This document shows, one piece after another, positions 15,313 through 50,148 of a DNA stretch of 64,000 nt (positions within the stretch are counted from its first letter, which is position 1; the number at the start of each line of letters is the position of its first letter). The stretch comes from Candidatus Woesearchaeota archaeon (GTDB lineage Archaea > Nanobdellota > Nanobdellia > Woesearchaeales > JABGUJ01): NCBI GenBank assembly GCA_018646625.1, contig JABGUJ010000004.1, positions 1 through 64,000 on the forward strand, given 5' to 3'. The position numbers and the translations under genes are program-made. The notes beneath the pieces were generated by a model. That model saw only the letters and a list, made by a program, of their open reading frames with translations. It searched no databases and was not told where the DNA came from.

Positions 15313-15327
15313 GAATTAAAAAAGAAA
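15313..15327 (-). terminator. oligo-T terminator of the 5S gene
   Basis: The minus strand reads CTTTCTTTTTTAA immediately after the helix-I 3' strand, a typical archaeal terminator. Confidence 0.55.
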
Positions 15328-15442
15328 GGAACGGCTTCATGAGCTTCCCGCACATAAGTGCAGTACCACAGCACGACGCAGACCTGCTTGACTTCCGTGT
15401 TCGAAATGGGAACGGGTAGGACCAGGCCACTCTGGCCGTTCA
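15328..15442 (-). rRNA. rrf: 5S ribosomal RNA
   Basis: On the minus strand the ends pair as helix I (GAACGGC with GCCGTTC). The internal region carries the universal loop-B/C block CCCATTTCGAACACGGAAG followed by TCAAGC. About 115 nt, and G+C-rich against an AT-rich background. A TATA element lies about 28 nt upstream (15467-15476) and an oligo-T terminator follows. It is not linked to 16S or 23S genes here, as in many archaea with dispersed rRNA genes. End positions are accurate to a base or two. Confidence 0.95.
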
Positions 15443-15466
15443 CAGAGTCAGAGATTTAACAACTCA

Positions 15467-15476: not shown

Positions 15477-15551
15477 TTTCTTATCTGTATTATCTATATT
15501 CAACGAGCAATTTATAAATTGTATATTTAAGCATTATTTTAGTCATTGAAA

Positions 15552-17096
15552 ATGAAAAAAAAGAATAGAAATTTGAAAAGTCTGAAGGAGCTTACTCAGG
15601 CTGCAGGCGTTTTTCTCATTTTCTCAGTTGTGAGTTACTTTATTTTATTTTTCTTTAGACTTTTAGCTGCAAGATATTTCGGAGCTGAAGATTTTGGTTT
15701 ATTTTCTTTAGCGGAGACAATACTATTAGTTGTTGTTTTATTTGTTTCATTGGGAATTCCTAGCGGTATTGCAAGGTATATTCCTCATTATTTGTACAAA
15801 AAGGAATTAGGAAAACTGAAAGGTTATTTGTATTTTATAGTATCAATTCCTCTTATTTTTTCTTTTATTGTTGCATTTTTTATCTGGATTTATTCTAAAC
15901 AGATCACTATATTCTTGGGTTACCCTGTCATATTTGAGACTATACTGAAGATCATCGCAATCGCGTTGCCTTTCAAAATAATCATGAGTTTGCTAAGAAA
16001 GATTTTTGTGGCTAGAAAATTAGTAATATATAAGCTCATATCTTACAGCGTGGTTGAAGTAGGTTTTCTCTTTCTTAGTATTCTAGTAATTATGTTTTTC
16101 AAACTATCTATACTCTGGCTTATAGTGGCCATGTTATTTTCTATTTTGTTAACGACGGCCTATTGTGGTTATGAGTATAAAATCAGGGTAAAATGGAACT
16201 TGCCTGCTAAGAGAAAATATGAACTCAAATCCTGGTTATACTTTTCTCTTCCATTACTTTTCTCAGGGATTTTTGCTTATTTTGTTAGATGGTCTGATAA
16301 CTTAATGATTGGTAAGTTTATGGACCCAACCGACTTAGGCATATACAGTGTAGCATTTTCTCTAGCGGCATTCTTAACATTTTTTCAACAATCCTTTTCA
16401 CTTCTTTTTATTCCTTTGATTTCAGAAGCAAAGGCCAAAAAGAAAGACGATGAGATTTCTTTTCTTTTTAAGAAGTCTGCGGCATGGATCTTTGGTTTGA
16501 GTTTTCCTATCTTTCTAGTTATGGTTGTATTTTCTAAACAGATACTAAATTTGCTATATGGTGCCGATTATGTTGGTGGGGCATTACCATTAATTATAAT
16601 TGCGTTTGGTATGCTGATAAATCTAGGGACTGGGTTAGGTAGCAAAATACTAATACTTCATAAAAAAACAATGTATTTGTTTTTGATTAATTGCTTCTTT
16701 GCACTGTTTAACATTGCTTTGAACATTATATTAATACCAATTATGGGTATTGTGGGTGCTGCGATAGCTAGCGCTACTACTCTGGCTCTGATAAATCTTT
16801 CATTTTTATGGGTGGCGAGAAGATATGAGAAACTTAACCTAGATCTAGTATCTAATTTTAAATTTATAATTGCAGGTATAGTTTCTGTTTTTCTGGCTAG
16901 TAGATTGTCATTATTGCCCATTAACGAAATAGTTCTTCTATTTTTATCGGGAGTGTCTTACGTTGTCTTATATTTGATTTTGCTATTGATGTTCAGAACT
17001 TTTAAAAAGGAAGATTTTCAAATGCTACTCTGGATGGAAAAGAAGTTTAAGATAAATCTGGATCCCCTGAAAAAGATAGTTAAGAAGTTCTATTGA
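15552..17096 (+). CDS. polysaccharide/lipid-linked oligosaccharide flippase (Wzx-like, MVF/MOP superfamily)
   Basis: About 514 aa with roughly 14 hydrophobic helices. The first 30 residues start basic (MKKKNRNLK), followed by the typical Wzx N-terminus (FRLLAARYFGAEDFGLFSLAE). Motif GIPSGIARYIPHY and mid-protein RWSDNLMIGKFMDPTDLGIYSVAF are characteristic of the polysaccharide_synt/MurJ-type fold. It probably flips a lipid-linked glycan across the membrane for AglB or for surface polysaccharide. ATG 15552 is 26 nt from a TATA-like TATATTTA; a TTG two codons earlier is less likely. Confidence 0.9.
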   Translation: MKKKNRNLKSLKELTQAAGVFLIFSVVSYFILFFFRLLAARYFGAEDFGLFSLAETILLVVVLFVSLGIPSGIARYIPHYLYKKELGKLKGYLYFIVSIPLIFSFIVAFFIWIYSKQITIFLGYPVIFETILKIIAIALPFKIIMSLLRKIFVARKLVIYKLISYSVVEVGFLFLSILVIMFFKLSILWLIVAMLFSILLTTAYCGYEYKIRVKWNLPAKRKYELKSWLYFSLPLLFSGIFAYFVRWSDNLMIGKFMDPTDLGIYSVAFSLAAFLTFFQQSFSLLFIPLISEAKAKKKDDEISFLFKKSAAWIFGLSFPIFLVMVVFSKQILNLLYGADYVGGALPLIIIAFGMLINLGTGLGSKILILHKKTMYLFLINCFFALFNIALNIILIPIMGIVGAAIASATTLALINLSFLWVARRYEKLNLDLVSNFKFIIAGIVSVFLASRLSLLPINEIVLLFLSGVSYVVLYLILLLMFRTFKKEDFQMLLWMEKKFKINLDPLKKIVKKFY

Positions 17097-17121: not shown

Positions 17122-18429
17122 TTAGTTGTAATGTTCTGGATTATTCTTCTTAGCAATTACCCTCATAACTTCTCTAAACACTCCATCGATACTGTCGGTT
17201 CTGATTGGGTGTCCTCCAAATTTGGCTACCTGCTTTCTAAATATATCTTGATCTCTCTTAAGCTCGTCAGGAGTTAAATGATCTTGCTTTCTTGCATATA
17301 TTTTTTTAGGATCATTATGAAGAAAAAAGAGTATGTCGGGTTTCATGTATAGGTAATCAGTAAAAAGCATCATAGGTTTAAACCATTTTTTCTGAACTTT
17401 GATATCCCAAATGTATCTATCAGTTAAAAGATAATTATATTTAAACTTTTTAGGTATTAATTTTGTAAACAACATACAATAATAACGGAATATATACATA
17501 ACATCTCTTGGAACAATCTTGATCTTATTCAACAGTCTGCCGGAAAAGCTTTTTCTTCTGATAAGAGACTTACTTCCTTTACAGACTTTCTTAATCACTT
17601 TGATATTTACCCATCGACCCATATAGACTTTAACACACTTTTTGTTCTTTTTTAGAGCGTTATACGTGGCATCGACGATCGTAGTTTTCCCACTACCATC
17701 TACTCCTATGAATGTTATTAGTTGATGAGGTCGAGAGAATCTTTTATACACTGTTTTATAAAAAACGTGTCCGAGTATATGGAAGACAAAAGATGGATGT
17801 TTAATCAGTGCAGCAAAGGTCCACCATCTTCTTAGTTCGGCGATCTTTCCAAAAGAACCTTTTTCAATCAGTTTAACCATTTTATTAGATTTTCTACCAA
17901 GAATCTCTTTGCTTCTATTACAAAAGTAATCTTTAGCATCATTGTTCTTCCAGAGATCTTTAACTTCAGATATTTTGTATTCAGAATAAGTTTTCCCCCC
18001 CAGTATTCCGTGTAGGAATAGATCTTTGTAAATCATTATCAGAAGCTGATGGCGCGGATCCATAACATAAATCCCATTTATTTTAACTCTAGCTGAGAAC
18101 ATATCCTTTGTATCAATATATCTTGATCTTTCAAAGCGATCTATCTGAACATCAAAAATAGGATACTCTGGGTTCAAATAATTAAAGTAAGTGATTTTTC
18201 TTGTTCGCTTTAATATTTTATTAAGAGTGATGTACCCATGTCGGTAGAGTAATTTACTCAACTTTTTAATATCAGTTCTAGGCACCACTAAATCAATATC
18301 GTCATTCTTTTTACGCTTTCCTGGAAGAACAATATCAAAGAGGTACTCTTTACTTCTAGGATATATGTACTTAACGTCTTTGTTCAATTCTTTGAATATC
18401 TTGGAAATTTTTGTATTGAGATCATTCAT
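17122..18429 (-). CDS. nucleotidyltransferase-like domain fused to a thymidylate-kinase-like P-loop domain
   Basis: 435 aa. Residues about 20-190 look like an NTase-fold sugar/nucleotidyl transferase (KKNDDIDLVVPRTDIKKL, with DIDLVV in place of the DxD motif). About 235-430 is a TMPK-like kinase: P-loop FIGVDGSGKTT (about 238-248), DRYIWD and a LID-like RKQDHL region. Such kinase domains occur in surface-polysaccharide loci and are not housekeeping Tmk. Substrate unknown; a phosphorylated glycan or sugar is likely. It overlaps the upstream kinase gene by 4 nt and ends a four-gene unit (21626 to 17122). Confidence 0.7.
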   Translation of the reverse strand: MNDLNTKISKIFKELNKDVKYIYPRSKEYLFDIVLPGKRKKNDDIDLVVPRTDIKKLSKLLYRHGYITLNKILKRTRKITYFNYLNPEYPIFDVQIDRFERSRYIDTKDMFSARVKINGIYVMDPRHQLLIMIYKDLFLHGILGGKTYSEYKISEVKDLWKNNDAKDYFCNRSKEILGRKSNKMVKLIEKGSFGKIAELRRWWTFAALIKHPSFVFHILGHVFYKTVYKRFSRPHQLITFIGVDGSGKTTIVDATYNALKKNKKCVKVYMGRWVNIKVIKKVCKGSKSLIRRKSFSGRLLNKIKIVPRDVMYIFRYYCMLFTKLIPKKFKYNYLLTDRYIWDIKVQKKWFKPMMLFTDYLYMKPDILFFLHNDPKKIYARKQDHLTPDELKRDQDIFRKQVAKFGGHPIRTDSIDGVFREVMRVIAKKNNPEHYN

Positions 18430-19073
18430 TTTAATCTTCTCACCAATTGGCTAATCTTCGCCTTTAAATCTTTATCTTTTGCAGATAAGATTAATTTTTC
18501 GAAGTCTTTTTCTCCATCTTTTATATCCTGCAACGGCTGGATTCCACCTATATCGATTAGGTAATATTTATTATTTTTCACAATAATATTACGGCAAGCA
18601 AAGTCACGGCAATGATATCCTTTCTTATGCAGTTCTCTTATGGTTTCTATGAGTTTGACAATGGCTTCTTTATTAAAGTTACTTATGTCTAATGATTCAG
18701 TGCCTTCAATATATTTATACATAACATAATCCTTTGTTGCCTTTATACACAAGTTGAATTCACCTAACAAATTGTTTTGGATAACGTGTTCAATATGCAT
18801 AAATCTTCTATTAAGAGGAATCGTCTGGTCAGGCTTTAGTGAGTTTATTACGTTCTGCCTGTGTTCGATAAGAAAATTACTTTTTTTTAAGAAATACATC
18901 CTATTATCGATCTTTATTAGATATTTGTTAAGCGATCCACTACCTTTATTGAATATACTGCATTCAGAATATTTAAATTTCAGAATCATACACTCTACTC
19001 TTCTTGATACACAAACTATTAAAAACGCAAGAAATTTTTTGTAGATACCAACAATCTTCTTTTTGAGACTCAT
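18426..19073 (-). CDS. small Kdo/LPS-kinase-like protein kinase fold (HRD type)
   Basis: 215 aa. Kinase-like fold with a hinge-like DYVMYKYIEG, catalytic loop HCRDFACRN (equivalent to HRDxxxxN; Asp and Asn present) and metal-binding LIDIGG (DxG). Resembles WaaP/KdkA/RIO-type small kinases, which phosphorylate sugars of envelope glycans. The N-lobe is reduced, with a KYLIKIDNRMYFLKKS strand that may supply the ATP Lys. GGTGA precedes the ATG. It lies 22 nt after a GT4 gene and overlaps the TMPK-fusion gene by 4 nt. Confidence 0.72.
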   Translation of the reverse strand: MSLKKKIVGIYKKFLAFLIVCVSRRVECMILKFKYSECSIFNKGSGSLNKYLIKIDNRMYFLKKSNFLIEHRQNVINSLKPDQTIPLNRRFMHIEHVIQNNLLGEFNLCIKATKDYVMYKYIEGTESLDISNFNKEAIVKLIETIRELHKKGYHCRDFACRNIIVKNNKYYLIDIGGIQPLQDIKDGEKDFEKLILSAKDKDLKAKISQLVRRLK

Positions 19074-19095: not shown

Positions 19096-20421
19096 TTAAT
19101 ACTTTTCAAGCTTAATATTAATATATTTCAAACTTTTTCTGAGCAACAGATAGCCCTTTTCTAAACCTTTCCACAATGTTTCTCGAATTTTATAATTGGT
19201 ATGTTCAAAAAAACCCACTTTATTGGCTTCCAAAGCAATCTGTGCTCTTTTCCAATATTCCGAGATATATTCTCTAGATTCTTTCTTTGAAGGAAGTATC
19301 TTCAAATCTTCAAACTTTTGTAGCTTAGATATTCTTTTTTCTTTTCTTAATATATTATAGAATATTTTGGCCATTGTTTTTGCACCAATCTTCGCATCGT
19401 ATAGTGTTTTAACTTTTTCAGAACCATTTTCTCCAAGAGATTTGAGATCTTTCTTACTCTTACTATCTAGAAACGAAATAACTGATGACGGATATATGCA
19501 ATATGCGCCATTTTTTTCATGATCGACTAATTCTATTTGAGAATCGCCAATATATTTCAGAATTTTCTTCTTCCTTATAGACTTCTTATAATCGGAGATT
19601 ACTGGAATATTAAAGCAAAAAGATTCGGCAATCACGTTACCAAAAGTTTCACCTAATTCTGAGGTTTGCCAGAAAACATCAATAGATTTATAGAACGACG
19701 CAATATCGTGGAGATCTGACATTTCCGGTAAGAATAAAATATTACTTAGCATTTTTTTAGATAGGATAATTTTTAGAAAATATCTATGTAATAGAGGCAT
19801 TCCAACAAATATGAATCCGTACTCATATTTCTTTTTCCTTTGAAGGATTTGTATCGTACGGATGATAAGATAATCCCATTTTGATGGTTCGCTTCTTGCA
19901 ATACGCCCAATTATTGTTTTTATTCCTTTTTTTTCAAAGAATTTTCTATAGGATGCGGGAGAACTCTTTTTAAGATCTTTCCACAATTTAAAATCTATAG
20001 GGTTGTAAACAACATGAGAATTTGCATTTTCTTTATAGAGTTGAGAAATTCTTACAAATTCAGTTTTACTAATTATAAGATTGGAAACGCGAGGATCTTC
20101 AGTAAGTTTTCTAGTAAAGACAACATTAGATAGCAGATGTGTCTGACTCTTAATAATTTCACATGATTCTTGATTTAGCTTTCCGGGATAAAAGAAATCA
20201 ATATCTTTAGATTTTATGAACTGAGAAAGATCATTTTTCTTGATTCTATAATTTCCGGATTTATCTTTCTTAATCCCTTTAGATTCTTCATCAATATACA
20301 CAAAGCATTTATTAAAATATTTAGAATCTAGATTTCTATACCAAATACCATATTTTCGGTTTCCTCCGCCAATACCCTTATCGGGCGCCGATATCACAAT
20401 ATTAATTTTGTCTTTTTTCAT
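19096..20421 (-). CDS. GT4-type glycosyltransferase
   Basis: 441 aa, GT-B fold. N-terminal NIVISAPDKGIGGGNRKY (glycine-rich acceptor loop), a mid-region IIGRIARSEPSKWD (start of the donor domain), FLPEMSDLHDIASFYKSIDVFWQTSELGETFGNVIAESF (donor-binding E-x7-E-type region) and IPVISDYK. It transfers a sugar from a nucleotide donor in surface glycan synthesis. The C-terminal ~80 residues form an extra helical segment. The start overlaps the upstream GT4 gene by 4 nt. Confidence 0.8.
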   Translation of the reverse strand: MKKDKINIVISAPDKGIGGGNRKYGIWYRNLDSKYFNKCFVYIDEESKGIKKDKSGNYRIKKNDLSQFIKSKDIDFFYPGKLNQESCEIIKSQTHLLSNVVFTRKLTEDPRVSNLIISKTEFVRISQLYKENANSHVVYNPIDFKLWKDLKKSSPASYRKFFEKKGIKTIIGRIARSEPSKWDYLIIRTIQILQRKKKYEYGFIFVGMPLLHRYFLKIILSKKMLSNILFLPEMSDLHDIASFYKSIDVFWQTSELGETFGNVIAESFCFNIPVISDYKKSIRKKKILKYIGDSQIELVDHEKNGAYCIYPSSVISFLDSKSKKDLKSLGENGSEKVKTLYDAKIGAKTMAKIFYNILRKEKRISKLQKFEDLKILPSKKESREYISEYWKRAQIALEANKVGFFEHTNYKIRETLWKGLEKGYLLLRKSLKYINIKLEKY

Positions 20422-21626
20422 TTTGAATCTTTCTCACAAAAAGATTTTTCTATAAATCCATAAAACTGTTTAGCGATTGAATCAACACCATACTTTTCTT
20501 GGATAAGTTTCTGAGATAGTTTTCCAAAAAGGTCTCTTTTCTTCTTTTCACGTAGTTGCAATATTTTTTTTGCAAGATCTATGTGGTCCGCAGTTTTAAA
20601 TATATACCCATTTTTGTTATTATCGACGTAATCAACAGCACCGCAAGTGTCTGAGACAATAACTGGTAGGCCACAAGCCATCGCTTCAGGAACTACCATA
20701 CCAATTGCTTCATTATAACTAGGAAGAACAAGTATGTCGTGAGAACAGTAGACTTTATTTATCTCAGAATATGGAACTCTGTTCAAAAATTTAACTTCAT
20801 TTGTCAAATTTAACGATATAATACTAGACTCAATATTTTCTTTAAGAGGTCCAGAGCCTAAAATCCCCAATTCAAATTTAACATCCGGATAATTAGTTTT
20901 GAGGTGATGCAACGCATTAAGCAAATCATTATGTCTTTTATATGAGATTAAACGAGCAACGATTAGTAACTTAATTATCTTATTTCTGTCTCTCTTTACT
21001 TTTACTTTCTTAAAAATCTCGGTATCGACACCAGCCAGGAGAGTATGGATTTTTGATTTATTAGTAACGGGGAAATATTGTTTTCCAAATTCCTCACCTT
21101 TGCGTGTCCAAGAAAGAATAAACCTTGATTGCTCAAACATTTTCTTGAGAATTTTGAATGTAAGTTTCACAAGAAACTTTGCAAAAGGATCTTTGGGGAA
21201 TTGTTTTATTTCTGTATTCAGAATTAATGGCGTGTTAGTTTTCTTGCAGTGCCAAGCGGCTTGCCATGTAGCTGGGCGATAATATACATTGGCAGCAACA
21301 ACATCGGGATCATATTTTTTTAGAAACTTCCCCATTCCTTTAAAATAGGTTAATGATGTTATCTCTGTATCTCTCTTACCTATGAGAAATCTTAATATGA
21401 CAATAGGAACAAAAATGAGGCGGAAGATTTTCTGATATTTTTTCAAATACTGGACTTTGAATTTTACCCCCTTCATTCTTTCTTTTTGTTCGTTACCTAC
21501 GATCATAGTAAATTCAATTTCAGGGTACAATTTGGTGAGTGAATTAAAAATATTAACATAGATTATATTAGGAAATTGAACTATCCATGCAACTTTTTTA
21601 GTTATTTTATGATTGTTTGAGACCAT
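20418..21626 (-). CDS. GT4 family glycosyltransferase
   Basis: 402 aa, GT-B fold. The donor domain starts at KLLIVARLISYKRHNDLL and continues with LGILGSGPLKENIE, VKFLNRVPYSEINKVY, and the EAIGMVVPEAMACGLPVIVSD retaining-GT signature. First gene of a four-gene minus-strand unit; TATA-like elements lie in the 91-bp gap upstream (21661-21668, 21685-21693), so it has its own promoter separate from the RtcB-like unit. Confidence 0.88.
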   Translation of the reverse strand: MVSNNHKITKKVAWIVQFPNIIYVNIFNSLTKLYPEIEFTMIVGNEQKERMKGVKFKVQYLKKYQKIFRLIFVPIVILRFLIGKRDTEITSLTYFKGMGKFLKKYDPDVVAANVYYRPATWQAAWHCKKTNTPLILNTEIKQFPKDPFAKFLVKLTFKILKKMFEQSRFILSWTRKGEEFGKQYFPVTNKSKIHTLLAGVDTEIFKKVKVKRDRNKIIKLLIVARLISYKRHNDLLNALHHLKTNYPDVKFELGILGSGPLKENIESSIISLNLTNEVKFLNRVPYSEINKVYCSHDILVLPSYNEAIGMVVPEAMACGLPVIVSDTCGAVDYVDNNKNGYIFKTADHIDLAKKILQLREKKKRDLFGKLSQKLIQEKYGVDSIAKQFYGFIEKSFCEKDSK

Positions 21627-21717: not shown

Positions 21718-22551
21718 TTATCTAAATAAAGTCCATCTTAGAACATATATGGCCTTTAGTAATTGATATTTTAGGCTTTTTTCCCTGCAATTCAAAAGAT
21801 CATATATTCTGTATTTTTTCATATAATATTTCAATAATTCTTCATTTGGAAAACTTTGTAAAAGAAGATTTTTAATTTTTTTGAGGAAGAAAAAATCATA
21901 CTTATAAAACCTCATAATTCCGCAACTGAACATCGATTCTATCAGTTTACCAAGATCAAGGTATATCGAGCTCTTTAAATTATATGAATAATCTATAAGG
22001 TACAATCTCTTTTTTTTATCTATAAGTATATTTTCAAGCTTAAGATTTCCGTGTATGACTTGCTTATCTTTAATCTGCTTTTCTTTGGGATTAAATCTTA
22101 GTAGCATATCGTTATTTTTATCAAAGAACTTGCGCATCACAAAGTCATAATCTGTAAAATTTGTAGATTTAACTCTTTTTAATTCATTGTAATAATCTCT
22201 CAAACCTTTGAATAGCATATCAAATACTTCAACCAAATTGTTTTTGTTCGACAACAGAATGTTTCTCTCTCTCATATATTTAATTAGATTAACTCCATCA
22301 ACATATTCCATACATAATATGTTTGTTTTCTCGTCAAAAAAGAATGCTTTGGGACACCCCAGAGTCTTATTCTTTTTTAACAAATTGTAATTTAAACATT
22401 GGTTATCGTATTCTGATTTCACATCAACTTTCTCATCATATTTTTTGATTAGAATATTATTATTCACAAAAATTTTAGAATGAGGACAAGACTCGAGTAA
22501 TCTGAATCTATTATTCTTAAAGTCATTCAATATCTTTTGTCTCGATATCAC
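21718..22551 (-). CDS. kinase-fold protein with HGN in place of the catalytic HGD (possible pseudokinase)
   Basis: 277 aa. APH/ChoK-like fold: N-lobe KIFVNNNILIKKYDEKVD with a candidate ATP Lys, hinge ILCMEYVDG, catalytic-loop HGNLKLENIL and metal-binding LIDYSY. In this fold the loop is normally HGDxxxxN; here the catalytic Asp is Asn, while the later Asn and the DxG-equivalent Asp remain. It may be inactive, a binding or scaffold protein, or use an altered mechanism. The ATG overlaps the stop of the RtcB-like gene by 4 nt, and it ends that unit. Confidence 0.7.
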   Translation of the reverse strand: MISRQKILNDFKNNRFRLLESCPHSKIFVNNNILIKKYDEKVDVKSEYDNQCLNYNLLKKNKTLGCPKAFFFDEKTNILCMEYVDGVNLIKYMRERNILLSNKNNLVEVFDMLFKGLRDYYNELKRVKSTNFTDYDFVMRKFFDKNNDMLLRFNPKEKQIKDKQVIHGNLKLENILIDKKKRLYLIDYSYNLKSSIYLDLGKLIESMFSCGIMRFYKYDFFFLKKIKNLLLQSFPNEELLKYYMKKYRIYDLLNCREKSLKYQLLKAIYVLRWTLFR

Positions 22552-23921
22552 TTTAAACTCGCTTTTGGTTTGAATCTAGCAACAATTTTGAAATATCCTT
22601 TTTTCTCATATTCTTTTAGTTTTTTGTGAGTGATCTCTGAATTCTCAAGCGTTTCGTAACTATATTGAATTTCTTTAGTTTTTATCCATCTTCTTCTGCG
22701 AAATTTCATCATAGTCTCTTTTAATTGTAGTTTACTATCGTCCTCCTTGAGAAGAATACCTAACCCGTGATCCATAAAATAGTCAAATTCACTTAGCTTC
22801 TTTCCCGCCTTACAAAGGTATGAATAATTAGTATAGTTTCCTGGAAGTATAAATAGATCTCCTTCACCTTTAAGCCAACAAGCATTTTTTGTGTAATAAA
22901 GTCCATCCTTTTCATCCAATATTGAATTATGAGATTTGTCCAGCACCAAATCATATTGAAAGTCGGTTTTTATAACTTTCTTTAAAGATCTTATTATCTT
23001 ATCATAAGTAATATATCTCCAGGAATAACCTAGATTCAGCGCAGCCGTCTCAGCCATCAGAAAATCTCTACCGTTCTTTGAATTATATTCTAGTCCTATC
23101 TGGTAGTCTTTGTTTCTAAATAATAAGTTTGAATTTTTTATTAAGAACCTCAAACCATATCTTTTTAGATTAAATGCGACCTTTTTCAAGAAAACAAATC
23201 TTGGTCCAACCACAGTAGAGTACAATATCTTTAAGAGTTTGTAATTAATATTACAGTAAAAACTAGATACATTATCGCCCAAATATCCCGTGCCTAAATG
23301 AACCATAAATAACACATCATTTTTCTTCAGGTCAGATGATTTATCATATATTTCATCAACAATTTGCATCTCAACAAAGTGATTGCCTCCGCCATTTTTC
23401 CCAATTTCTCTATAAGTTCCACCATATAATGATTTAGGAATGGTATCTAAAATAACTCTACGATCTATATTCTTGTTCCTAAAAAGATTTCCTTCCCTTT
23501 CAAAAGCTTTTTTTTCTAATTTAAAGTATCTTTCTGGAATTGCATCTATGCCTTTCAGTAGAATTTCATCAAGTTCTTCGCGAGTTATTTCATCCTTGCC
23601 TATTAATCTACCCAACTGAGAAAGGGTCGTTACTCTATCTATCTCCTTAAAAAGATCATATTGTTTGTCTTTCAATTCACTGAATTTAATATTTGTACGC
23701 ATAAGACCCATACCACAATTCATTGAAAGGCTTGAATAATATGGGTAAATTACTTTTTTGTTGGTTTTCACGGCAACACTACAGGGATTATTTTTTCCTT
23801 TTAGGTGAGGTTCCATAAGAAAGAATATCTTTTCTATATTTTTATTTTTTAAAATTACATCTGTTGCTTTCTTTAACTCGCCCGTTATCATCCCTTTGTT
23901 CATAAATTTTCTTTTGTTCAT
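22548..23921 (-). CDS. divergent RtcB-like protein in a glycan locus
   Basis: 457 aa, aligned by eye with RtcB (GTP-dependent RNA ligase) over nearly its whole length. RtcB metal and guanylylation residues seem kept: Cys in MNCGM (Cys98), NHFVE (Asn202/His203/Glu206), MVHLG (His234), SHN (His329/Asn330), DHGLG (His404, the GMP-linked His) and a last-residue Lys matching Lys480. Lost or changed: Asp95 (DINCG becomes SMNCG), the SGSR loop (LGTG) and RKGA (TKNA); the large insertion before the LIPGS segment is shortened. RtcB numbers follow Pyrococcus RtcB. It sits between a methyltransferase and kinase-like genes, not near RNA genes. A role in joining phosphorylated glycans is speculation. Confidence 0.75.
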   Translation of the reverse strand: MNKRKFMNKGMITGELKKATDVILKNKNIEKIFFLMEPHLKGKNNPCSVAVKTNKKVIYPYYSSLSMNCGMGLMRTNIKFSELKDKQYDLFKEIDRVTTLSQLGRLIGKDEITREELDEILLKGIDAIPERYFKLEKKAFEREGNLFRNKNIDRRVILDTIPKSLYGGTYREIGKNGGGNHFVEMQIVDEIYDKSSDLKKNDVLFMVHLGTGYLGDNVSSFYCNINYKLLKILYSTVVGPRFVFLKKVAFNLKRYGLRFLIKNSNLLFRNKDYQIGLEYNSKNGRDFLMAETAALNLGYSWRYITYDKIIRSLKKVIKTDFQYDLVLDKSHNSILDEKDGLYYTKNACWLKGEGDLFILPGNYTNYSYLCKAGKKLSEFDYFMDHGLGILLKEDDSKLQLKETMMKFRRRRWIKTKEIQYSYETLENSEITHKKLKEYEKKGYFKIVARFKPKASLK

Positions 23922-23939
23922 TTTTTTCTCGCATTATTT

Positions 23940-24944
23940 TCATTTTATCTTTTTCATAATCACAAAAAGAGTCGCACCCTTGGTAGGATACTTTTGTTTG
24001 AGAAAAGAGGAATACCAATTTATAAATTTGTTCTTTTTACGTACATCACATAAATGATTATAGGTTTCTAGGTGATCGATCGTATAATTGTGCAAATATT
24101 TAGAAATAAGTTCATTAACATCAACACCTCGTTCTTTATGATGTCCGCCTGCGGTTGGAGACTGAATATCTATGATTTCAATTAATTGCTTGACAGAGAG
24201 AGGATTTTCTATTATTCCTTTTTCGACTAGTTTTTTATTCACTTGATCGTACAATTTATTTTCTTCTTTAAGTCCGCTGCTTAACAACCCGTAACATCTT
24301 CTTGCAAATTCATATAATCCTATTTTTCTTAATATTGCCGCAACAGTTTGAACAGGATAAAAGAGAGAATAGATGAATCTAAAATTATTCCACAAAACTC
24401 TATGATTGTAGAACGGTTTATTTGGTTCATGTCCAATAATAAGTTTTCCACCAACCTTTAAGACGCGATCAATTTCTCTAAAGAATACATTGAAATTAGG
24501 TATGTGATGAACTACTGCGTTCATCATTACATAGTCTGTGGATTCGGCTTTAAGATCAATCTTAGTGCCGTTAAGTTTAAGATATTCAAAATTGCATTTG
24601 AATTTCTTCTCGGATACATTGATTTCGCAGGCATCTAATATTGTTTGAGATAGATCTGAACAGATAAAAAGATCCTTTTTCTTAAAAAATTTAGCAATTT
24701 GAAGAGGCACAAAACCAGTGCCTGAACCCAAATCTAACACCGTTATTTTTCTGGTTAATTTTCCAAACAGTGTTTTTCCAATTTTTCCCCAGCGCTTTTG
24801 TTCATCTTCTAGTATTTCTGGATGTTTATTATGATACTTACTACCTTCTATGTCGTGAAAGATTTCATTTACCTTTAAAACGAGATTGGTACTGTATTTC
24901 ATTTTCTTAATCCTCTTGCTGCCATTATGAACTAATTTATTCAT
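23940..24944 (-). CDS. SAM-dependent methyltransferase
   Basis: 334 aa class I methyltransferase. Motif I is VLDLGSGTGFVPL (about 74-86), the acidic strand-2 residue is in ICSDLS, and post-motifs AVVHHIPNF and LKVGGKLIIGHE follow the Methyltransf_11 pattern. The C-terminal ~130 residues are helical and may set the substrate. It overlaps the upstream kinase-like gene by 8 nt and precedes the RtcB-like gene by 18 nt, so the three are cotranscribed. The acceptor is unknown. Confidence 0.85.
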   Translation of the reverse strand: MNKLVHNGSKRIKKMKYSTNLVLKVNEIFHDIEGSKYHNKHPEILEDEQKRWGKIGKTLFGKLTRKITVLDLGSGTGFVPLQIAKFFKKKDLFICSDLSQTILDACEINVSEKKFKCNFEYLKLNGTKIDLKAESTDYVMMNAVVHHIPNFNVFFREIDRVLKVGGKLIIGHEPNKPFYNHRVLWNNFRFIYSLFYPVQTVAAILRKIGLYEFARRCYGLLSSGLKEENKLYDQVNKKLVEKGIIENPLSVKQLIEIIDIQSPTAGGHHKERGVDVNELISKYLHNYTIDHLETYNHLCDVRKKNKFINWYSSFLKQKYPTKGATLFVIMKKIK

Positions 24945-25824
24945 ACACTTTTATCTTTTCACTCTTAATTCGCTTAATTAATATAGTTAAGTAAATATTA
25001 ACGGGGAATTTCTTAAGAACATAAATTAATTTACGAGTCTTATACGTTCTTTCTTTTTTTAATATTTCAATTAATTTGTTTTTCATCCTGGCCTTACTTA
25101 CTGGAAACTTTGAATTAGCAACATAGCCTTTGAAGAACGATGTCTCAAGAGCTTTTAGCCCTTTTTTTGATAATATGATTCTTAAGATGAAGTTATATGG
25201 ATAAAAATTACGGGCAAACACTGCTAAGTCAAAATAGATACTTCCTTTCTGAAATGCGGGATCAAAGAGAAACATCTTATCTTTTTCAACGAACATCATA
25301 TTGTGGCCGCACAGATCTCCGAATAACTGAGTAATGGTTTCTTCTTTGACAGTTTTATGCCGATATTTTGTGTGGAATGCTGCAAGAAATTCTCCAAGTT
25401 CGAAAAATGTTCTTTTAAGCGACTTATTAAAGTAAAACTTGTTACAGTTCTCTACAAGATGTTTGCAAAACGAAGTTCCCTCAACATATTTCTGGATGAG
25501 TATTTTTTCTTTCAAATCCTTGGCTATTACATTTGGAGTAGTGATTTCTTTACTTCTAATCTTGTTTAATAAGTCTATAGTTTTTGTTTCTTCGATAAAT
25601 CTACTCTTGGCGGTGAACTTCCATTGATAATTCATATTTTTTTTAACAATAAACTTCTTTATGAAATACTTCTTGTTTTTTGTTGTCAGAGTATATGAGT
25701 CTGCGGCGTAACCTTCGTGATGAAGTTTAAACGTCACAATATCTTCATCTTTAATTCTAAGTAATTCTTTTATTCTCTTAATCAGTTCCGCTTTATTATT
25801 CCTATTCATTTGCTTGGAGTTCAC
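24937..25824 (-). CDS. APH-like kinase (first gene of the RtcB-like unit)
   Basis: 295 aa with a GTG start preceded by AGGTGATG. Phosphotransferase fold: N-lobe YFIKKFIVKK, hinge ILIQKYVEG, catalytic loop FGDLCGHN (HGDxxxxN with the His replaced by Phe, Asp and Asn kept) and metal-binding LFDPAF. It likely phosphorylates a small molecule or sugar. It leads the unit kinase / methyltransferase / RtcB-like / pseudokinase and is divergent from the Lrp regulator at 26025 across a 200-bp gap with several TATA-like elements. Confidence 0.72.
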   Translation of the reverse strand: MNSKQMNRNNKAELIKRIKELLRIKDEDIVTFKLHHEGYAADSYTLTTKNKKYFIKKFIVKKNMNYQWKFTAKSRFIEETKTIDLLNKIRSKEITTPNVIAKDLKEKILIQKYVEGTSFCKHLVENCNKFYFNKSLKRTFFELGEFLAAFHTKYRHKTVKEETITQLFGDLCGHNMMFVEKDKMFLFDPAFQKGSIYFDLAVFARNFYPYNFILRIILSKKGLKALETSFFKGYVANSKFPVSKARMKNKLIEILKKERTYKTRKLIYVLKKFPVNIYLTILIKRIKSEKIKVYE

Positions 25825-26017: not shown

Positions 26018-26036
26018 TAAGATTATGGCGATCTTA
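26018..26036. promoter_or_regulatory. operator-like inverted repeat over the Lrp start codon
   Basis: TAAGAT (26018-26023) and ATCTTA (26031-26036) flank the ATG at 26025. Same half-site as the two palindromes 60-90 bp upstream; binding here would block transcription initiation of the leaderless mRNA. Confidence 0.5.
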
Positions 26037-26504
26037 GATGAAAAAAACTGTATGATCCTCAACCTCCTGCAAGAGGATTGTAGGATGTCCCTGACTGACA
26101 TGGCAAGGCGTGTGAATCTTTCTGTAGATTCTGTTAGAAAACGGCTGAAAAAACTGGAGGAACAAATTTATTTTTACCCTAAAGTACAGATAAGGCCTAG
26201 GATGCTTGGTTTTCCCAATATTGTGGATGTGAAGATAAAGCTGCGTGACTATGATGACAAAAAACTCAAACAATTTATTGATTATACTGTTAGTCATCCG
26301 CGTATAGCTGAAGTATTCTCGCTTTCAGGAGAATGGGATTTTACTTTAGTGATTATTTCTAAGGATCACGAAGATTTGGGAGAAATTACTGATGAGATAA
26401 GAAATAAGTTTGGAGCGATCATTACAGAATGGTCTGAGTCATTAACCAAAAAAGCATACAAATTTGAGGCATATGATGTCCTTAAGTTAAAGGGACACCA
26501 ATAA
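26025..26504 (+). CDS. Lrp/AsnC family transcriptional regulator
   Basis: 159 aa, the typical single-unit length. Winged HTH (about 5-55: ILNLLQEDCRMSLTDMARRVNLSVDSVRKRL) and a RAM/AsnC ligand domain (about 65-150: VKIKLRDYDDKKL...FSLSGEWDFTLVIISKDHEDL). It stands 15 bp before the CMP-sugar synthetase gene, as the first gene of the nonulosonate operon. The repeated TTAAGAT palindromes around its promoter suggest it regulates itself and this operon. Confidence 0.88.
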   Translation: MAILDEKNCMILNLLQEDCRMSLTDMARRVNLSVDSVRKRLKKLEEQIYFYPKVQIRPRMLGFPNIVDVKIKLRDYDDKKLKQFIDYTVSHPRIAEVFSLSGEWDFTLVIISKDHEDLGEITDEIRNKFGAIITEWSESLTKKAYKFEAYDVLKLKGHQ

Positions 26505-34494: not shown

Positions 34495-35226
34495 ATGAAA
34501 GAGGAAAATGAAGAAACAAGCAAAGAAATCGATACTCATCAAAAGAATTGGGATGAAGTTTATGCTAAACAGAACATGACTTTATGGGAGCCACAGCAAT
34601 CCATTGTGCAATTCACAGCCAGATTTGTAAAAAAAAGGATAGGCTATGATAAGTATGAAGTAAAAAGAAATGCAAATAAAATTTTAGATCTAGGGTGCGG
34701 GAACGGGGGCGCAGTTCACTTCTTTGCTAAGCAGGGATTCGAAGCCCACGGTATTGACATAAGTAAAGCAGCAATATTTGTTGCAGAGGATTATCTGAAA
34801 AAAGAAAGTCTCACAGCAAAATTTGAAATTTGCAGTTGCGATAATTTACCTTTTGAGAATAACACATTTGATGTAATTACTTGTTTTGGTGTATTGGATC
34901 ATGTTGATATGAATCTAGCTATTGGTACAATAAAAGAAGTAAAAAGGACATTGACCAACGGTGGATTATTTTTTATAACACTCTGCTCAACCAGGGCAAC
35001 ACCTTTTGGGCGGGGAGAGAAAACTGAGAGACATACGTATGTTCTTGAAGAAGGACACGAAAAGGGCGAGATACAACATTACTTTGATCTTGAAGAAATA
35101 CGTGAATTATTGGATGGCTTCAAAATAATAGATTTGAGGCATTCCACTGAGGAAGCATATGGTCAGAATAATGAGCCATTAGGTAAAAGTGCAAGGTGGT
35201 TTGTCACAGCAGAGGCAACTGAATGA
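34495..35226 (+). CDS. SAM-dependent methyltransferase
   Basis: 243 aa. Motif I ILDLGCGNGGAVHFF and acidic GIDISKAA, followed by VITCFGVLDHVD and LTNGGLFFITL. Preceded by a strong AAGGAGG. Probably O- or N-methylates the nonulosonate or a precursor, judged from its place in the operon. The stop overlaps the HisH-like start. Confidence 0.85.
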   Translation: MKEENEETSKEIDTHQKNWDEVYAKQNMTLWEPQQSIVQFTARFVKKRIGYDKYEVKRNANKILDLGCGNGGAVHFFAKQGFEAHGIDISKAAIFVAEDYLKKESLTAKFEICSCDNLPFENNTFDVITCFGVLDHVDMNLAIGTIKEVKRTLTNGGLFFITLCSTRATPFGRGEKTERHTYVLEEGHEKGEIQHYFDLEEIRELLDGFKIIDLRHSTEEAYGQNNEPLGKSARWFVTAEATE

Positions 35227-37968: not shown

Positions 37969-37979
37969 AGGTGCCTATA

Positions 37980-45033: not shown

Positions 45034-45695
45034 CACCTACTTATTTTCCACCATAGTATGTGGAGTGCTATCTTGACGCCGTCAACTGCAGTGGTACCTT
45101 TATAATCGTCTGAATAAAGGGTTCTTATAAAGATTTCTTTGTATTTTAAGTTATTCTTACCTGCATTAACTATCATCTCAGATTCCATTCTGTAGTCATT
45201 TGAGGACCATCGAACTTTCTGGTATGCCGAAGATGTTAGTGCTCTGTAACCTGATTGTGTGTCTGATATGTTCATACCATAAATGAGGTTCATTAGACCA
45301 TTCAATACATAATTACCAAATCTAAACACAACAGGCATTTTCTTGCTTCTACGTCTAGAACCATAAATGATATCAACTCCTTTTAGCGCTTTAACAAAAT
45401 TTGGAATCTCTTTAGGTTCGTGTTGACCATCAGAATCCATGAATATTAGTGTTTTGGCACCATTAGCAACAGCATAGTCTGCACCAGTTTTCACTGCGGC
45501 GCCTTTACCCAAATTGACAACATGTTTTAGAGCTATTGCGCCTCCCTTTACCGCTGAAGAATAAGTTTTATCTCTAGAACCATCATCAACAACAACAATA
45601 TTAGAACAGTATTTCTTCGTATTCCTAATTACTTTAGTTATGTGTTTCTCTTCATTGTACGCAGGTATTATTACCCACAAACTCTTTTCCGACAT
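45033..45695 (-). CDS. GT2 polyprenyl-phosphate sugar synthase
   Basis: 220 aa, DPM1-like GT-A fold: IIPAYNEEKHITKV, VVDDGSRDKTY, MDSDGQHEP (DxD) and DTQSGYRAL. It lacks C-terminal membrane helices; the adjacent DUF2304 protein may supply membrane association. It probably loads a sugar onto dolichyl/polyprenyl phosphate for the N-glycan. Its ATG overlaps the AglB stop by one base. Confidence 0.9.
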   Translation of the reverse strand: MSEKSLWVIIPAYNEEKHITKVIRNTKKYCSNIVVVDDGSRDKTYSSAVKGGAIALKHVVNLGKGAAVKTGADYAVANGAKTLIFMDSDGQHEPKEIPNFVKALKGVDIIYGSRRRSKKMPVVFRFGNYVLNGLMNLIYGMNISDTQSGYRALTSSAYQKVRWSSNDYRMESEMIVNAGKNNLKYKEIFIRTLYSDDYKGTTAVDGVKIALHILWWKISR

Positions 45696-48600
45696 TATCC
45701 CAAATTAGTTGATTCTTTTGCATTGTTTAATGAGTATTGATTATTATCTTTTTTGTCTGTTAATTTTATTATGTGATATCCAAAATCAGATTTAACTGGT
45801 TCGGGAGTATAATCTCCAATCGCTTCTAGAGAAAATACTGCTTTCTCAAACTCGGGAACCATTCGCCCCCTAGTAAAAAAGCCTAGGTCTCCACCGTTAG
45901 GTCCAGTTGGACCAACTGATTTCTCTTTTGCAAGTTCTGAAAAGTCATCTCCTGAATCAAGGCGTGCAATAATTGCTTCAGCCTCCTCAGTTGTATTAAC
46001 TAATATGTGGCTTGCTCTTACTTCGATGTTGGCATCAATTTGCGCTTGAATTGCTGGCATGATTGTCATGTCTTTACAATCCCAATCAAGTTTGTAAGTG
46101 TAAATATCTAAACCAGTTACATCTACATCATGGCCGAAAGCATCATAGCACCACAATCCATGTCCTTCGTAGAAGAACATACTTGTAAACATGCTCGCTG
46201 CCAGCTCGGGAGAAATAAACATAGAGTTATATCCTCCGTTTGTTCGAGGAATTAATGCCAGACTAAATCCTGTTTTCGCTTCGCCTTGGAGTTTCTTTTC
46301 ATGTAAACCTGAAGCATCAGCGTAAACAATCGAATCAGGAACAACTTTCTGTCCATTATTTGTATTTACTGTTGCAGTCATACTCTGTAAATCAACATTG
46401 ACACTAATGGCGTTGCCTTGAACATTATTTGTACATTCCAACGAATTCTCTTTGTTACTACAACTTCGCGGATTAGATATATAACCAGGCCATCCACTTA
46501 CCCATCTATCTGCGTTGTTATTCTGTACATCAAAATAGATGTCAACTGCCTTTTCTTCATCTAATCCAAATCTGGTGATAAGAATATCAACACCGTCTGC
46601 TTTCTTTTGACCTTTTACTGCTTGGTACATTGCACCCTTTGTAAAATCCCAACTACCAAAGTGACCCCACACGCCTGCCTTTCCGACCATATCTTCGGAA
46701 GCAATCATGTAATTATCAATTAAATCATCACAATGAGAGTATTGAAGAACATCTTCGGCTTGTTTATTTGTCAAACCAATGTTTAATAATTCATCTTTCG
46801 CAACAGATCTTTCTTTTCCAATTATTGATTTTAAAGTTGTTATTGCAAGATAACTATCCTTAATCTCTGTCTCACTAGTGTAGTTCTCGAGTTTTTTGTA
46901 AGATTCTTCTTGACCACAGTTCAGCATCTTAATTATATCAACCGATTCCTTCTCAGATGATGTTTGTAAACTTCTGCCAATCCAATGGATTCTTTTACCT
47001 TGATTACCGCCATCATGTGTAACTCTTCTTTCACCCATTGCAACAAACCAATGACCAAAATCCCACCATGAGGATATGATTGCATCATTTGAACCTTCCT
47101 GAATTCTCTGTAGTGAATTATACCAGTCATCGTTAAAACTAGGTACTTCATTTATAGACACATTATATCCTGCTTTTATTGGTTGAATCAACACAAGAAT
47201 AAAGACGATGATCAAAACTATTCTTGTAATTTTATAATTAACATCCAGACTTTTATTAACTAATTTAGGCAGATACTTAACCAAAAATCCTGCACCTAAA
47301 CCAAAACTAACCGCAAATGCGGGAACCATTAGTGCACTAAATCTCAAACTGCTTGCTGCTGCAAATGTTGTTCCTCCCAACCACAACAAAAGAAGTATTC
47401 CGTGAAATGATTTATTTCCTGAAGTGTCCTTCTTAAAACAGAAGATAATTCCTACTAGTGCAATAATAAACAAAAATATAGAACCTGTGTCACCAATTGC
47501 TTTTAACCATGATGATGGATTTAGTTCCGCAACTGTAGTTAGTACATTCGGCCAAATAGTTGTAATGGCTACTTCTTTAAGAGTTAAGAATCCAAGTGGC
47601 CCGGACAACAGTGCTTGATAAAGTAATGTTAAAACATTTTTATGCCATCCATATATCATTGCACTTACGAATGAGAAAACCACGAACGACGCAAAATAAT
47701 ATCCTAATGGTTGATATACGCGTAGAACTAATTCGTTATTCTTAAGATTTTTGAATAGGTTTTTGAAATTTGTAAATTCTTTTATTACCACAAACAGGAA
47801 GTATATTCCGAACGCACCGAGAATAAAACCAAGTATGTGCCACCAACCTGTCCAAGCCATCGAAAATAATATAGTAGACAAACCTGCCAGAACTGAATAG
47901 ATTGCTTTCTTTATCTTGTGATTTTCTAGGCATGCAAATCCGATAAAACAAACAATTAATGCGGGGAACAAAGCATTGTATGGGTCTGTATCAGAGAATC
48001 CTGCAACCGTTCGTGTCATAAGTGCGCTATGCACCGCAAACAGCGAAGAACCAATCAGTGCACCAAAATCTCCGACTAGTCTTTTTGTAAATAAGTATAT
48101 TGGAATCACTGCCAATGTTATCATAATTAATGGCAAGACGAATGCGACACTTAACAGCGAAATATTTTTCCCAAACAAGTTTACAAATTTATACAATAGA
48201 ACTTCCATGAATGCTGCAAATTTAACTCCTCTTTTCTGACCAATCCTTCCATTTCTTCGATAATCCCAAGCTTCACCAGTTTCTTCATTAATACCATTAC
48301 CAAAATTTCCATGATCAACATAATTCTTAGCGTAACCATACCAAAGATACGGATCTATTGCCAACAAATACGTCTGGCCATCATCATTTTGCAAACGCGA
48401 CTTAAAAGATTCAGAGGTATCTTCAATCTGTTTTTGAATATTATCACTATTGTCAATTAGCAGTTGTTGAAATTGTTCATCAACCAACGCCGCTTTATTC
48501 GCTGGAGGCAGATTAGGATATTGTTGATTTATCTGACCTTCAATTTGATTTTGATAATAACCCTCTACAGTTTGTTCTGCCCAATTATCAGTTATAGGCA

Positions 48601-48853
48601 GATAAAATGGTTGAGCTCTAAGAAATATACTTAACGCAATAGGGATGATTATTAAGAATATAGTTCTATACTTGTAAAAGAAATTCCATATGGACTTAAG
48701 ACCAATATCTACTTCATCACTTTTGCTTTCATGATGCGTTTTCTTGGTTCTTTTTCTTTTTATGAAGTCTTTAACTTTTGATACATTAAAAGAAATATCT
48801 TCGCTCTCTTCTTTTTCTTGATGGTTATCCTTCTTTTTTTCGTGTTTGCTCAT
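45695..48853 (-). CDS. aglB: AglB/STT3 oligosaccharyltransferase with a fused C-terminal PpiC parvulin domain
   Basis: 1052 aa. A cytoplasmic charged N-terminus (1-50), about 13 membrane helices (about 60-540), then the extracellular catalytic part. STT3 motifs: DPYLWYGY (about 168, first-loop acidic), SDTDPYN (about 286, DxD-type) and WWDFG (about 596; WWDYG in most). From about 944 to 1031 there is a full PpiC domain (SHILVN...GDDFSELAKEKSVG...GGDLGFF.RGRMVPEF...FGYHIIKL), closely similar to that at 6723-7880. AglB transfers the lipid-linked glycan to Asn in NxS/T. The fusion puts a prolyl isomerase beside the glycosylation site. First gene of a six-gene operon with overlapping starts; TATA near 48898-48908. 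Confidence 0.92.
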   Translation of the reverse strand: MSKHEKKKDNHQEKEESEDISFNVSKVKDFIKRKRTKKTHHESKSDEVDIGLKSIWNFFYKYRTIFLIIIPIALSIFLRAQPFYLPITDNWAEQTVEGYYQNQIEGQINQQYPNLPPANKAALVDEQFQQLLIDNSDNIQKQIEDTSESFKSRLQNDDGQTYLLAIDPYLWYGYAKNYVDHGNFGNGINEETGEAWDYRRNGRIGQKRGVKFAAFMEVLLYKFVNLFGKNISLLSVAFVLPLIMITLAVIPIYLFTKRLVGDFGALIGSSLFAVHSALMTRTVAGFSDTDPYNALFPALIVCFIGFACLENHKIKKAIYSVLAGLSTILFSMAWTGWWHILGFILGAFGIYFLFVVIKEFTNFKNLFKNLKNNELVLRVYQPLGYYFASFVVFSFVSAMIYGWHKNVLTLLYQALLSGPLGFLTLKEVAITTIWPNVLTTVAELNPSSWLKAIGDTGSIFLFIIALVGIIFCFKKDTSGNKSFHGILLLLWLGGTTFAAASSLRFSALMVPAFAVSFGLGAGFLVKYLPKLVNKSLDVNYKITRIVLIIVFILVLIQPIKAGYNVSINEVPSFNDDWYNSLQRIQEGSNDAIISSWWDFGHWFVAMGERRVTHDGGNQGKRIHWIGRSLQTSSEKESVDIIKMLNCGQEESYKKLENYTSETEIKDSYLAITTLKSIIGKERSVAKDELLNIGLTNKQAEDVLQYSHCDDLIDNYMIASEDMVGKAGVWGHFGSWDFTKGAMYQAVKGQKKADGVDILITRFGLDEEKAVDIYFDVQNNNADRWVSGWPGYISNPRSCSNKENSLECTNNVQGNAISVNVDLQSMTATVNTNNGQKVVPDSIVYADASGLHEKKLQGEAKTGFSLALIPRTNGGYNSMFISPELAASMFTSMFFYEGHGLWCYDAFGHDVDVTGLDIYTYKLDWDCKDMTIMPAIQAQIDANIEVRASHILVNTTEEAEAIIARLDSGDDFSELAKEKSVGPTGPNGGDLGFFTRGRMVPEFEKAVFSLEAIGDYTPEPVKSDFGYHIIKLTDKKDNNQYSLNNAKESTNLG

Positions 48854-49014: not shown

Positions 49015-50148
49015 ATGAAACGAGTTTTAGCAACATCATCGCATCCTGGTGGAATTAACGCAATATTGCCTGTAATTAGACAATTGAATCAAGAAGGACA
49101 GGTAAATGTGATTTCTATTGGTCATGAATCCTCTGAGAAAATGTTGGCTGCTGCCGGAATTAGTTATCGAACACTCTCTAGCTACGGAGTTGGCACAACT
49201 TCTGAAGAAGAATTGGAACTTTTGATCGAACGAGTATCGCCTAATATTGTATTAACAGGTACGGGAGATAGTGATCGAGACGGTAAAAAGGTAATAGAGC
49301 AAACAATTGTGAGTGCTGCAAGAAATGCAGGAATAACTTCCCTGTCTGTTTTAGACGTTTGGGCAAACTATTCTCTAAGATTTAGTGATCCCTTAAACTT
49401 AGAAGAGGGGCACTTAAGGTTTCTGCCGGACAAAGTTGCTGTTATGGATGAGCTTGCAAGAAGCACTATGGTTGCAGAAGGATTCCCAATAGATCGCTTG
49501 GTTGTAACGGGCAACCCTTTTTTTGATGATCTAGTGGAGGTTGGACGAAGATTTGGATCATCCAATCGTGAAGAAGTCAGGGCAGATCTTGGAGTATCTG
49601 CCGATGCTTTGCTTTTATTGTATGCTTCGCAACCAATTGAACATCACTATGGTGACAGTCTAGGATACACGGAGAAAACTGCATTGGACGCACTTTTATC
49701 TTCATTAAATAAAACTCGAACTGGGAGGGAAGTGTCTCTTCTTGTTAAAGTACATCCTAGAGAAAATATCCCAGATCTTGAAGAAGTTGCTGAAAAATAT
49801 AGTGGAGTACATGTTTTATTTGATCAAGACTACCCCACAAGACCCACGGTTCTTGCATCGGATGTGGTATTTTCACCATTCTCGACTGTTCTTATTGAAT
49901 CAACTTATTTGCATAAACCCTCGATTAGTTTACAACCAGGATTGAGACAAAAAGACTTGCTTGTAACGAACGAACTCGGTGTGACTGTTCCAATCTATAC
50001 TTCTGAAGATTTAGATGTGGTTGTTCAGAAAGTACTTTCAGATGAATCGTATTTACGAGAGCTATCCATTAAAGGACACAAGAAAGGTTTTGTGGTAGAT
50101 GGAGACGCAACAGATAAAGTAACTTCATTGGTTTATTCTCTTCTTTAA
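49015..50148 (+). CDS. GT-B-fold protein (glycosyltransferase or 2-epimerase-like), function unassigned
   Basis: 377 aa. N-terminal VLATSSHPGGINAILPVIRQL resembles the glycine loop of GT-B proteins. The mid-part VAVMDELARSTMVAEGFPIDRLVVTGNPFFD is the typical linker seen in UDP-GlcNAc 2-epimerases and LpxB-like transferases. The C-terminal KVHPRE, VVFSPFSTVLIESTYLHKPSISLQPG is reminiscent of capsule or CDP-glycerol-type transferases. I cannot choose between these. GTGAGGG precedes the ATG; TATA TTTATAAG lies at about 48968. Confidence 0.6.
   Translation: MKRVLATSSHPGGINAILPVIRQLNQEGQVNVISIGHESSEKMLAAAGISYRTLSSYGVGTTSEEELELLIERVSPNIVLTGTGDSDRDGKKVIEQTIVSAARNAGITSLSVLDVWANYSLRFSDPLNLEEGHLRFLPDKVAVMDELARSTMVAEGFPIDRLVVTGNPFFDDLVEVGRRFGSSNREEVRADLGVSADALLLLYASQPIEHHYGDSLGYTEKTALDALLSSLNKTRTGREVSLLVKVHPRENIPDLEEVAEKYSGVHVLFDQDYPTRPTVLASDVVFSPFSTVLIESTYLHKPSISLQPGLRQKDLLVTNELGVTVPIYTSEDLDVVVQKVLSDESYLRELSIKGHKKGFVVDGDATDKVTSLVYSLL

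Follow-up and report, generated by a model that had tools for sequence, protein, structure and literature searches.

What does a divergent relative of the RNA ligase RtcB do among kinases and glycosyltransferases? The question is raised by a locus in Candidatus Woesearchaeota archaeon (assembly GCA_018646625.1, contig JABGUJ010000004.1, positions 1 to 64,000); this whole stretch of 64,000 nt is referred to below as the window. To our knowledge, RtcB is known only as an enzyme that processes the ends of RNA and, in vitro, also of DNA. The divergent copy is called RtcB* here, and residues are numbered as in Pyrococcus RtcB, with equivalents taken from alignment.

The operon and its surroundings

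The first-pass annotation had described an operon of kinase, methyltransferase, RtcB-like and kinase genes beside surface-glycan genes. These four genes are present on the same (minus) strand, separated by overlaps or an 18 bp gap, and the operon proves longer than described, with eight minus-strand genes running from 25824 down to 17122. The features are as follows, the eight operon genes first and in their order.

24937..25824, minus: kinase A, APH/fructosamine-kinase-like, GDL..HN..DP kept (weak Pfam Fructosamin_kin match, 4e-4)
23940..24944, minus: SAM methyltransferase (Methyltransf_11; Pfam E 7e-17)
22548..23921, minus: RtcB*, divergent RtcB-fold paralogue of 457 aa (Pfam RtcB E 2e-30, fold match, residue alignment)
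21718..22551, minus: kinase B, APH/Bud32-like, HGN replacing HGD (Pfam Pkinase 8e-5)
20418..21626, minus: GT4 glycosyltransferase (Glycos_transf_1 E 6e-38)
19096..20421, minus: GT4 glycosyltransferase (Glycos_transf_1 E 4e-10)
18426..19073, minus: WaaY/Kdo-kinase-like kinase (Pfam WaaY E 2e-5, above cut-off)
17122..18429, minus: fusion of an NTP_transf_5-like domain and a TMPK-like P-loop kinase (NTP_transf_5 3e-5 and Thymidylate_kin 1e-5, both below curated cut-offs)
15546..17096, plus: polysaccharide flippase (Polysacc_synt_3 E 1e-23)
26025..26504, plus: AsnC/Lrp-like regulator, divergent from the operon (open reading frame; HTH assigned by eye)
45695..48853, minus: AglB/STT3 oligosaccharyltransferase of the wider cluster (STT3 E 4e-27, with a C-terminal PpiC domain)
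49015..50148, plus: Glyphos_transf (TagF-like) protein of the wider cluster (Pfam E 3e-8, above cut-off)

The glycan neighbours named at first pass have Pfam matches, those of the TMPK fusion below the cut-offs: the two GT4 enzymes and the fusion lie within the operon, and the flippase outside it. The fusion also matches, at 2e-13, a TMPK profile built from kinases adjoining RtcB* elsewhere. The Glyphos_transf gene lies 25 kb from RtcB*, and its Pfam match is weak evidence of phosphotransfer.

The wider cluster also holds sialic-acid-type genes, assigned by eye. Several features of the window are of separate interest. The PpiC peptidyl-prolyl isomerase domain of AglB/STT3 forms an unusual fusion in one 1052-aa frame. 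A NeuB-like synthase and an NAD-dependent epimerase-like domain share a single 660-aa frame (27229-29211, plus; by eye). After a HisH/HisF-like pair come two N-sugar amidotransferase-like genes that are related to each other (35223-39092, plus; HisF confirmed by Pfam). A lone 5S rRNA gene (15326-15443, minus) is the sole Rfam match in the window.

The two kinases differ in their catalytic motifs. Kinase A retains the catalytic and the metal-binding Asp, and its ortholog beside RtcB* in a second genome, Candidatus Woesearchaeota JAFCDQ01 (G181), is 45% identical. Kinase B has Asn in place of the catalytic Asp, as does its ortholog in G181 (Pfam APH 2e-11). The term pseudokinase, used at first pass, is therefore fair for kinase B, where HGN replaces HGD in the ortholog too. 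Among 176 sampled genomes, kinase B was found in two, both carriers of RtcB*, and kinase A in three, two of them carriers. In the third (L159, 1-7522) the kinase A relative stands at the contig start, and an RtcB* gene upstream may be missing; it is followed by a 420-aa protein without a Pfam match, a TMPK-like kinase and GT4, methyltransferase, deacetylase and flippase-like genes. The best PDB match of kinase B is the choline kinase 4r77, at a marginal E of 0.009 that makes it a lead only. The profile of kinase A has no match in the PDB, and its structure model is of low confidence (pLDDT 53).

Fold and active site

The RtcB fold assigned at first pass is confirmed by profile search and structure prediction. 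RtcB* scores 106.8 bits against PF01139, for which the curated cut-off is 27, and all ten RtcB* members described below match this family. The AlphaFold model (pLDDT 82, pTM 0.84) has 16 PDB matches at E<0.001, all of them RtcB, including 4dwq/1uc2 at TM 0.70.

In RtcB, the ligands of Mn1, which contacts the alpha-phosphate, are C98, H234 and H329; those of Mn2, which contacts the gamma-phosphate, are D95, C98 and H203 (PMC10630183). The guanine base is contacted by F204, E206 and K480, and GMP is taken by H404 (PMC3973293). As the first-pass annotation had read from the sequence, the metal and GMP-transfer residues that it listed are present in the window protein, in which C98=C69, N202=N180, H203=H181, F204=F182, E206=E184, H234=H208, H329=H331, N330=N332, S385=S367, H404=H385 and K480=K457. 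It had also been right that Ser replaces Asp95 (S66) and that two loops are altered: HGAGRxxSR has become HGLGILLKE, and the HRKGA loop is shorter and changed. R408 is I389, and a change beyond these is D65 to E37.

The same pattern extends across the group. C98, N202, H203, F204, E206, H234, H329, H404, G405, G407 and K480 are kept in all ten members, so that the Mn1 ligands, the GMP-accepting histidine and the guanine pocket are intact in each; S385 is retained in nine. Asp95 is absent from all ten (S, S, A, R, N, N, N, N, N, G), leaving the Mn2 ligand set incomplete, whereas it is present in 25 of 25 other RtcBs and in 66 of 66 viral RtcBs. Asp95 loss as the private decay of one genome is thereby rejected. 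Because the Mn1 and GMP residues are retained and D95 is lost, RtcB* appears as a protein with its GMP-loading machinery kept and its second metal site changed. N330 is lost in eight of ten. The eight Omnitrophota members all have a changed K351 (Q, S, N or T), and seven of them retain R408. The window protein and L060 have lost more residues: R408 and R412 are both changed, and the alignment column of K351 lies within a loop that has gaps. Between H234 and N290, RtcB* members have 75-99 residues, compared with 52-57 in other RtcBs, owing to an insertion of 20-45 residues in all ten.

Set against the RtcB RNA ligases (Pyrococcus horikoshii PH1602, E. coli RtcB, human RTCB), RtcB* shares the fold, the Mn1 ligands, the GMP-linked histidine, the guanine pocket and the C-terminal lysine. 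It differs at about 20% identity in the missing Asp95, the insertion after H234, the altered HRKGA and SR loops, the missing archease partner and the location in a glycan cluster.

Relatives and distribution

Nine relatives of RtcB* were found, one in Woesearchaeota and eight in Omnitrophota. The genome samples searched hold one genome per species and are incomplete. When 371 genomes of the window's phylum were surveyed with the single protein, one ortholog came up, in G181, at 47% identity. A single-sequence scan of genome contigs found no relatives; with the two-row alignment as query, three further members (L063, L064 and L065) were recovered from 84,980 species genomes. A five-sequence profile run against 384 genomes of Omnitrophota, the phylum of L064, then added five. 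L063 is counted as Omnitrophota because the sample for its source, G525, shares genomes with that phylum. RtcB* is rare, occurring in two of the several hundred genomes sampled from the window's phylum and in 6 of the 384 Omnitrophota genomes, the query's own included.

In two maximum-likelihood trees, built with 25 and 27 other RtcBs (the second including canonical copies from eight carrier genomes), the ten RtcB* are set apart from the rest by a branch with support 100/99. Two independent traits, the loss of Asp95 and the longer H234-N290 stretch, also back a single clade. Within it, the placement of L126 is unsure, and the window protein and L060 form a fast-evolving pair on a long branch. 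Members of the clade come from two domains of life and are about 25% identical. A viral origin was considered and rejected, as no RtcB* was found in viral contigs; among the plasmid matches listed, only ordinary RtcB-level similarity was seen, with a best identity of 27%. RtcB subfamilies such as RtcB2-PrfH have been described in the literature (PMC9223846). Like RtcB*, RtcB2-PrfH and other bacterial and viral subfamilies are extra paralogues in their genomes, but the bacterial and viral RtcBs sampled here, which did not include RtcB2-PrfH by name, keep Asp95 and lie on the opposite side of the 100/99 branch.

The first-pass annotation had asked whether a second, canonical RtcB exists in the same genome, with the prospect that the divergent copy might instead be the only rtcB and its relatives have Asp95 restored. 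There are exactly two RtcB genes in the window's genome, the second of which is canonical (E 4.5e-155), has Asp95 and adjoins archease; Asp95 is restored in none of the ten RtcB*. Since this separate canonical RtcB stands beside archease, RtcB* is ruled out as the tRNA ligase of its genome. Every RtcB* carrier genome has one canonical RtcB and one archease. Archease adjoins the canonical copy in most carriers and is next to RtcB* in none of them. An operon with archease or rtcA, one mark of the RtcB RNA ligases, is not seen for RtcB*. The control canonical loci contain archease and, in the three Omnitrophota among them, a serS-like gene as well.

Genomic setting

Glycosyltransferases lie within 6 kb of RtcB* at nine of ten loci and at none of 32 other RtcB loci (Fisher P 2e-8), a comparison that is not perfectly neutral because the home-made profiles behind the counts were trained on RtcB* clusters. 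The signal holds when each locus is left out of its own profiles, and the one RtcB* locus without a glycosyltransferase is a contig of 4.5 kb. A kinase is found at most two genes from RtcB* in all ten cases and belongs to one of three folds. APH-like kinases occur in the window, L060 and L063, and HprK-like kinases in L063 and L064. HprK-like domains are also fused to GT4 in L125 (9736-11919) and L126 (10743-12986), adjacent to RtcB* or two genes away. TMPK-like genes directly adjoin RtcB* in four Omnitrophota (L065, L122, L123 and L124), and three of these, L122 to L124, share the arrangement RtcB* - TMPK - LPG_synthase_TM - PMT, with family names taken from L122. CDP-alcohol phosphotransferases occur in two clusters (L124, L126). 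In G181 the order is kinase A - RtcB* - kinase B - TagF-like - flippase, with the TagF-like (Glyphos_transf) gene directly following the cassette. The co-occurrence anticipated at first pass therefore held in part: kinases and glycosyltransferases recur with RtcB*, but the four-gene set is not intact, as the methyltransferase lies outside the cassette in G181, the one close relative.

Proposed function and alternatives

The reading favoured here, with a probability of about 0.4, is that RtcB* serves surface-glycan assembly by guanylylating a kinase-made phosphate to give X-pp-G. A neighbouring kinase would phosphorylate a hydroxyl group, whether on a sugar, a polyol, a lipid or the end of a glycan. 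RtcB* would be loaded at H385 with GMP from GTP and would pass it to that phosphate, the product being of a GDP-alcohol or GDP-sugar-like type. One of the cluster's transferases, either TagF-like or of another kind, would then move X-phosphate onto an acceptor hydroxyl; less probably, RtcB* would itself do the joining. The surface glycans concerned may be lipid-linked or protein N-glycans. GTP use, the substrate and the end point of the reaction are what we infer from residues and gene setting. Somewhere near even odds may be given to a broader claim, namely a new class of GTP-dependent activases or ligases for building glycans, with the RtcB fold, in archaea and Omnitrophota, that convert kinase-made phosphates of glycans, polyols or lipids into GDP-activated donors or phosphodiester links.

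Published work on Pyrococcus RtcB offers a precedent. The D95A variant is inactive alone, whereas together with archease it guanylylates the RNA 3'-phosphate and does not ligate (PMC3973293), and the RtcB* clade could for this reason be a phosphate guanylyltransferase. RtcB also makes stable DNA3'pp5'G caps (PMC4499129), so its activity can extend to other phosphates and end with ppG. Some points weigh against the favoured reading. The D95A enzyme needs archease, and RtcB* has none of its own; APH-like and TMPK-like kinases are also found in a glycan cluster without RtcB*, that of L159 at its contig start; and the window pair, on its long branch, has lost further residues.

Parts of the route resemble known systems. 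The LicA-LicC-LicD phosphocholine pathway, which decorates teichoic acids, proceeds by a kinase, nucleotidyl activation of the phosphate and phosphotransfer to a glycan. Its outline is like that proposed for RtcB*, and kinase B has its marginal match to a choline kinase; LicC, however, is a CTP nucleotidyltransferase of another fold, whereas the present route is proposed with GTP and the RtcB fold. Archaetidylinositol-phosphate/DIPP synthases and CDP-glycerol glycerophosphotransferases form phosphodiesters and are present in RtcB* clusters, but their folds are unrelated to RtcB* and their donors are CDP-activated. A search of titles and abstracts in the open-licence literature for RtcB together with polysaccharides or glycosyltransferases returned no relevant paper.

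It is rather unlikely that RtcB* has ceased to guanylylate and acts as a metal-dependent phosphatase or phosphodiesterase, or partners the kinases or transferases without catalysis of its own. Such a role would fit the loss of an Mn2 ligand, the loss of positions in contact with phosphate or RNA and the fast evolution of the window pair. The GMP-linked histidine, F204, E206 and K480 are nevertheless unchanged in ten of ten members, across two domains and at about 25% identity, which would be unexpected if GTP were not used.

The original proposal, that RtcB* is a true ligase in which hydroxyl attack after guanylylation yields a phosphodiester in a glycan or glycolipid, is unlikely. It draws on the same setting and retained residues, RtcB chemistry natively ends in ligation, and the clusters hold other phosphodiester-forming enzymes. 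Against this, Asp95, lost in every member, is required for ligation even with archease, and the D95A data point to guanylylation of the phosphate without final joining (PMC3973293); N330 is lost in eight of ten, and all eight Omnitrophota members have another residue in place of the charged K351.

RtcB* is very unlikely to have remained an enzyme of RNA ligation or repair, for instance of organism-specific damage, that stands in glycan clusters by coincidence. It shares its fold and most active-site residues with RNA ligases, but D95 is lost, each carrier already has a canonical RtcB, and the glycan and kinase setting recurs in ten genomes compared with 0 of 32 other RtcB loci. The joining of RNA or a nucleotide to a glycan or lipid is compatible with fold and setting, with nothing direct in its favour, and is highly improbable, since R190, R238, K351 and R412, which we take to be RNA contacts, are conserved in most RtcBs but vary in RtcB*, suggesting that its RNA site has degenerated.

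Significance

A natural clade without the full set of Mn2 ligands, found beside kinases and glycosyltransferases in two domains, suggests that His-GMP chemistry serves carbohydrate or lipid phosphates, and it offers a direct test of the role of Asp95 in RtcB. Because RtcB* recurs beside kinases in sugar-coat clusters, an RNA-joining enzyme may have been recruited for cell-surface sugars. If true, the guanylylation of glycan precursors by RtcB* would extend nucleotide-dependent phosphate activation to enzymes of a new fold.
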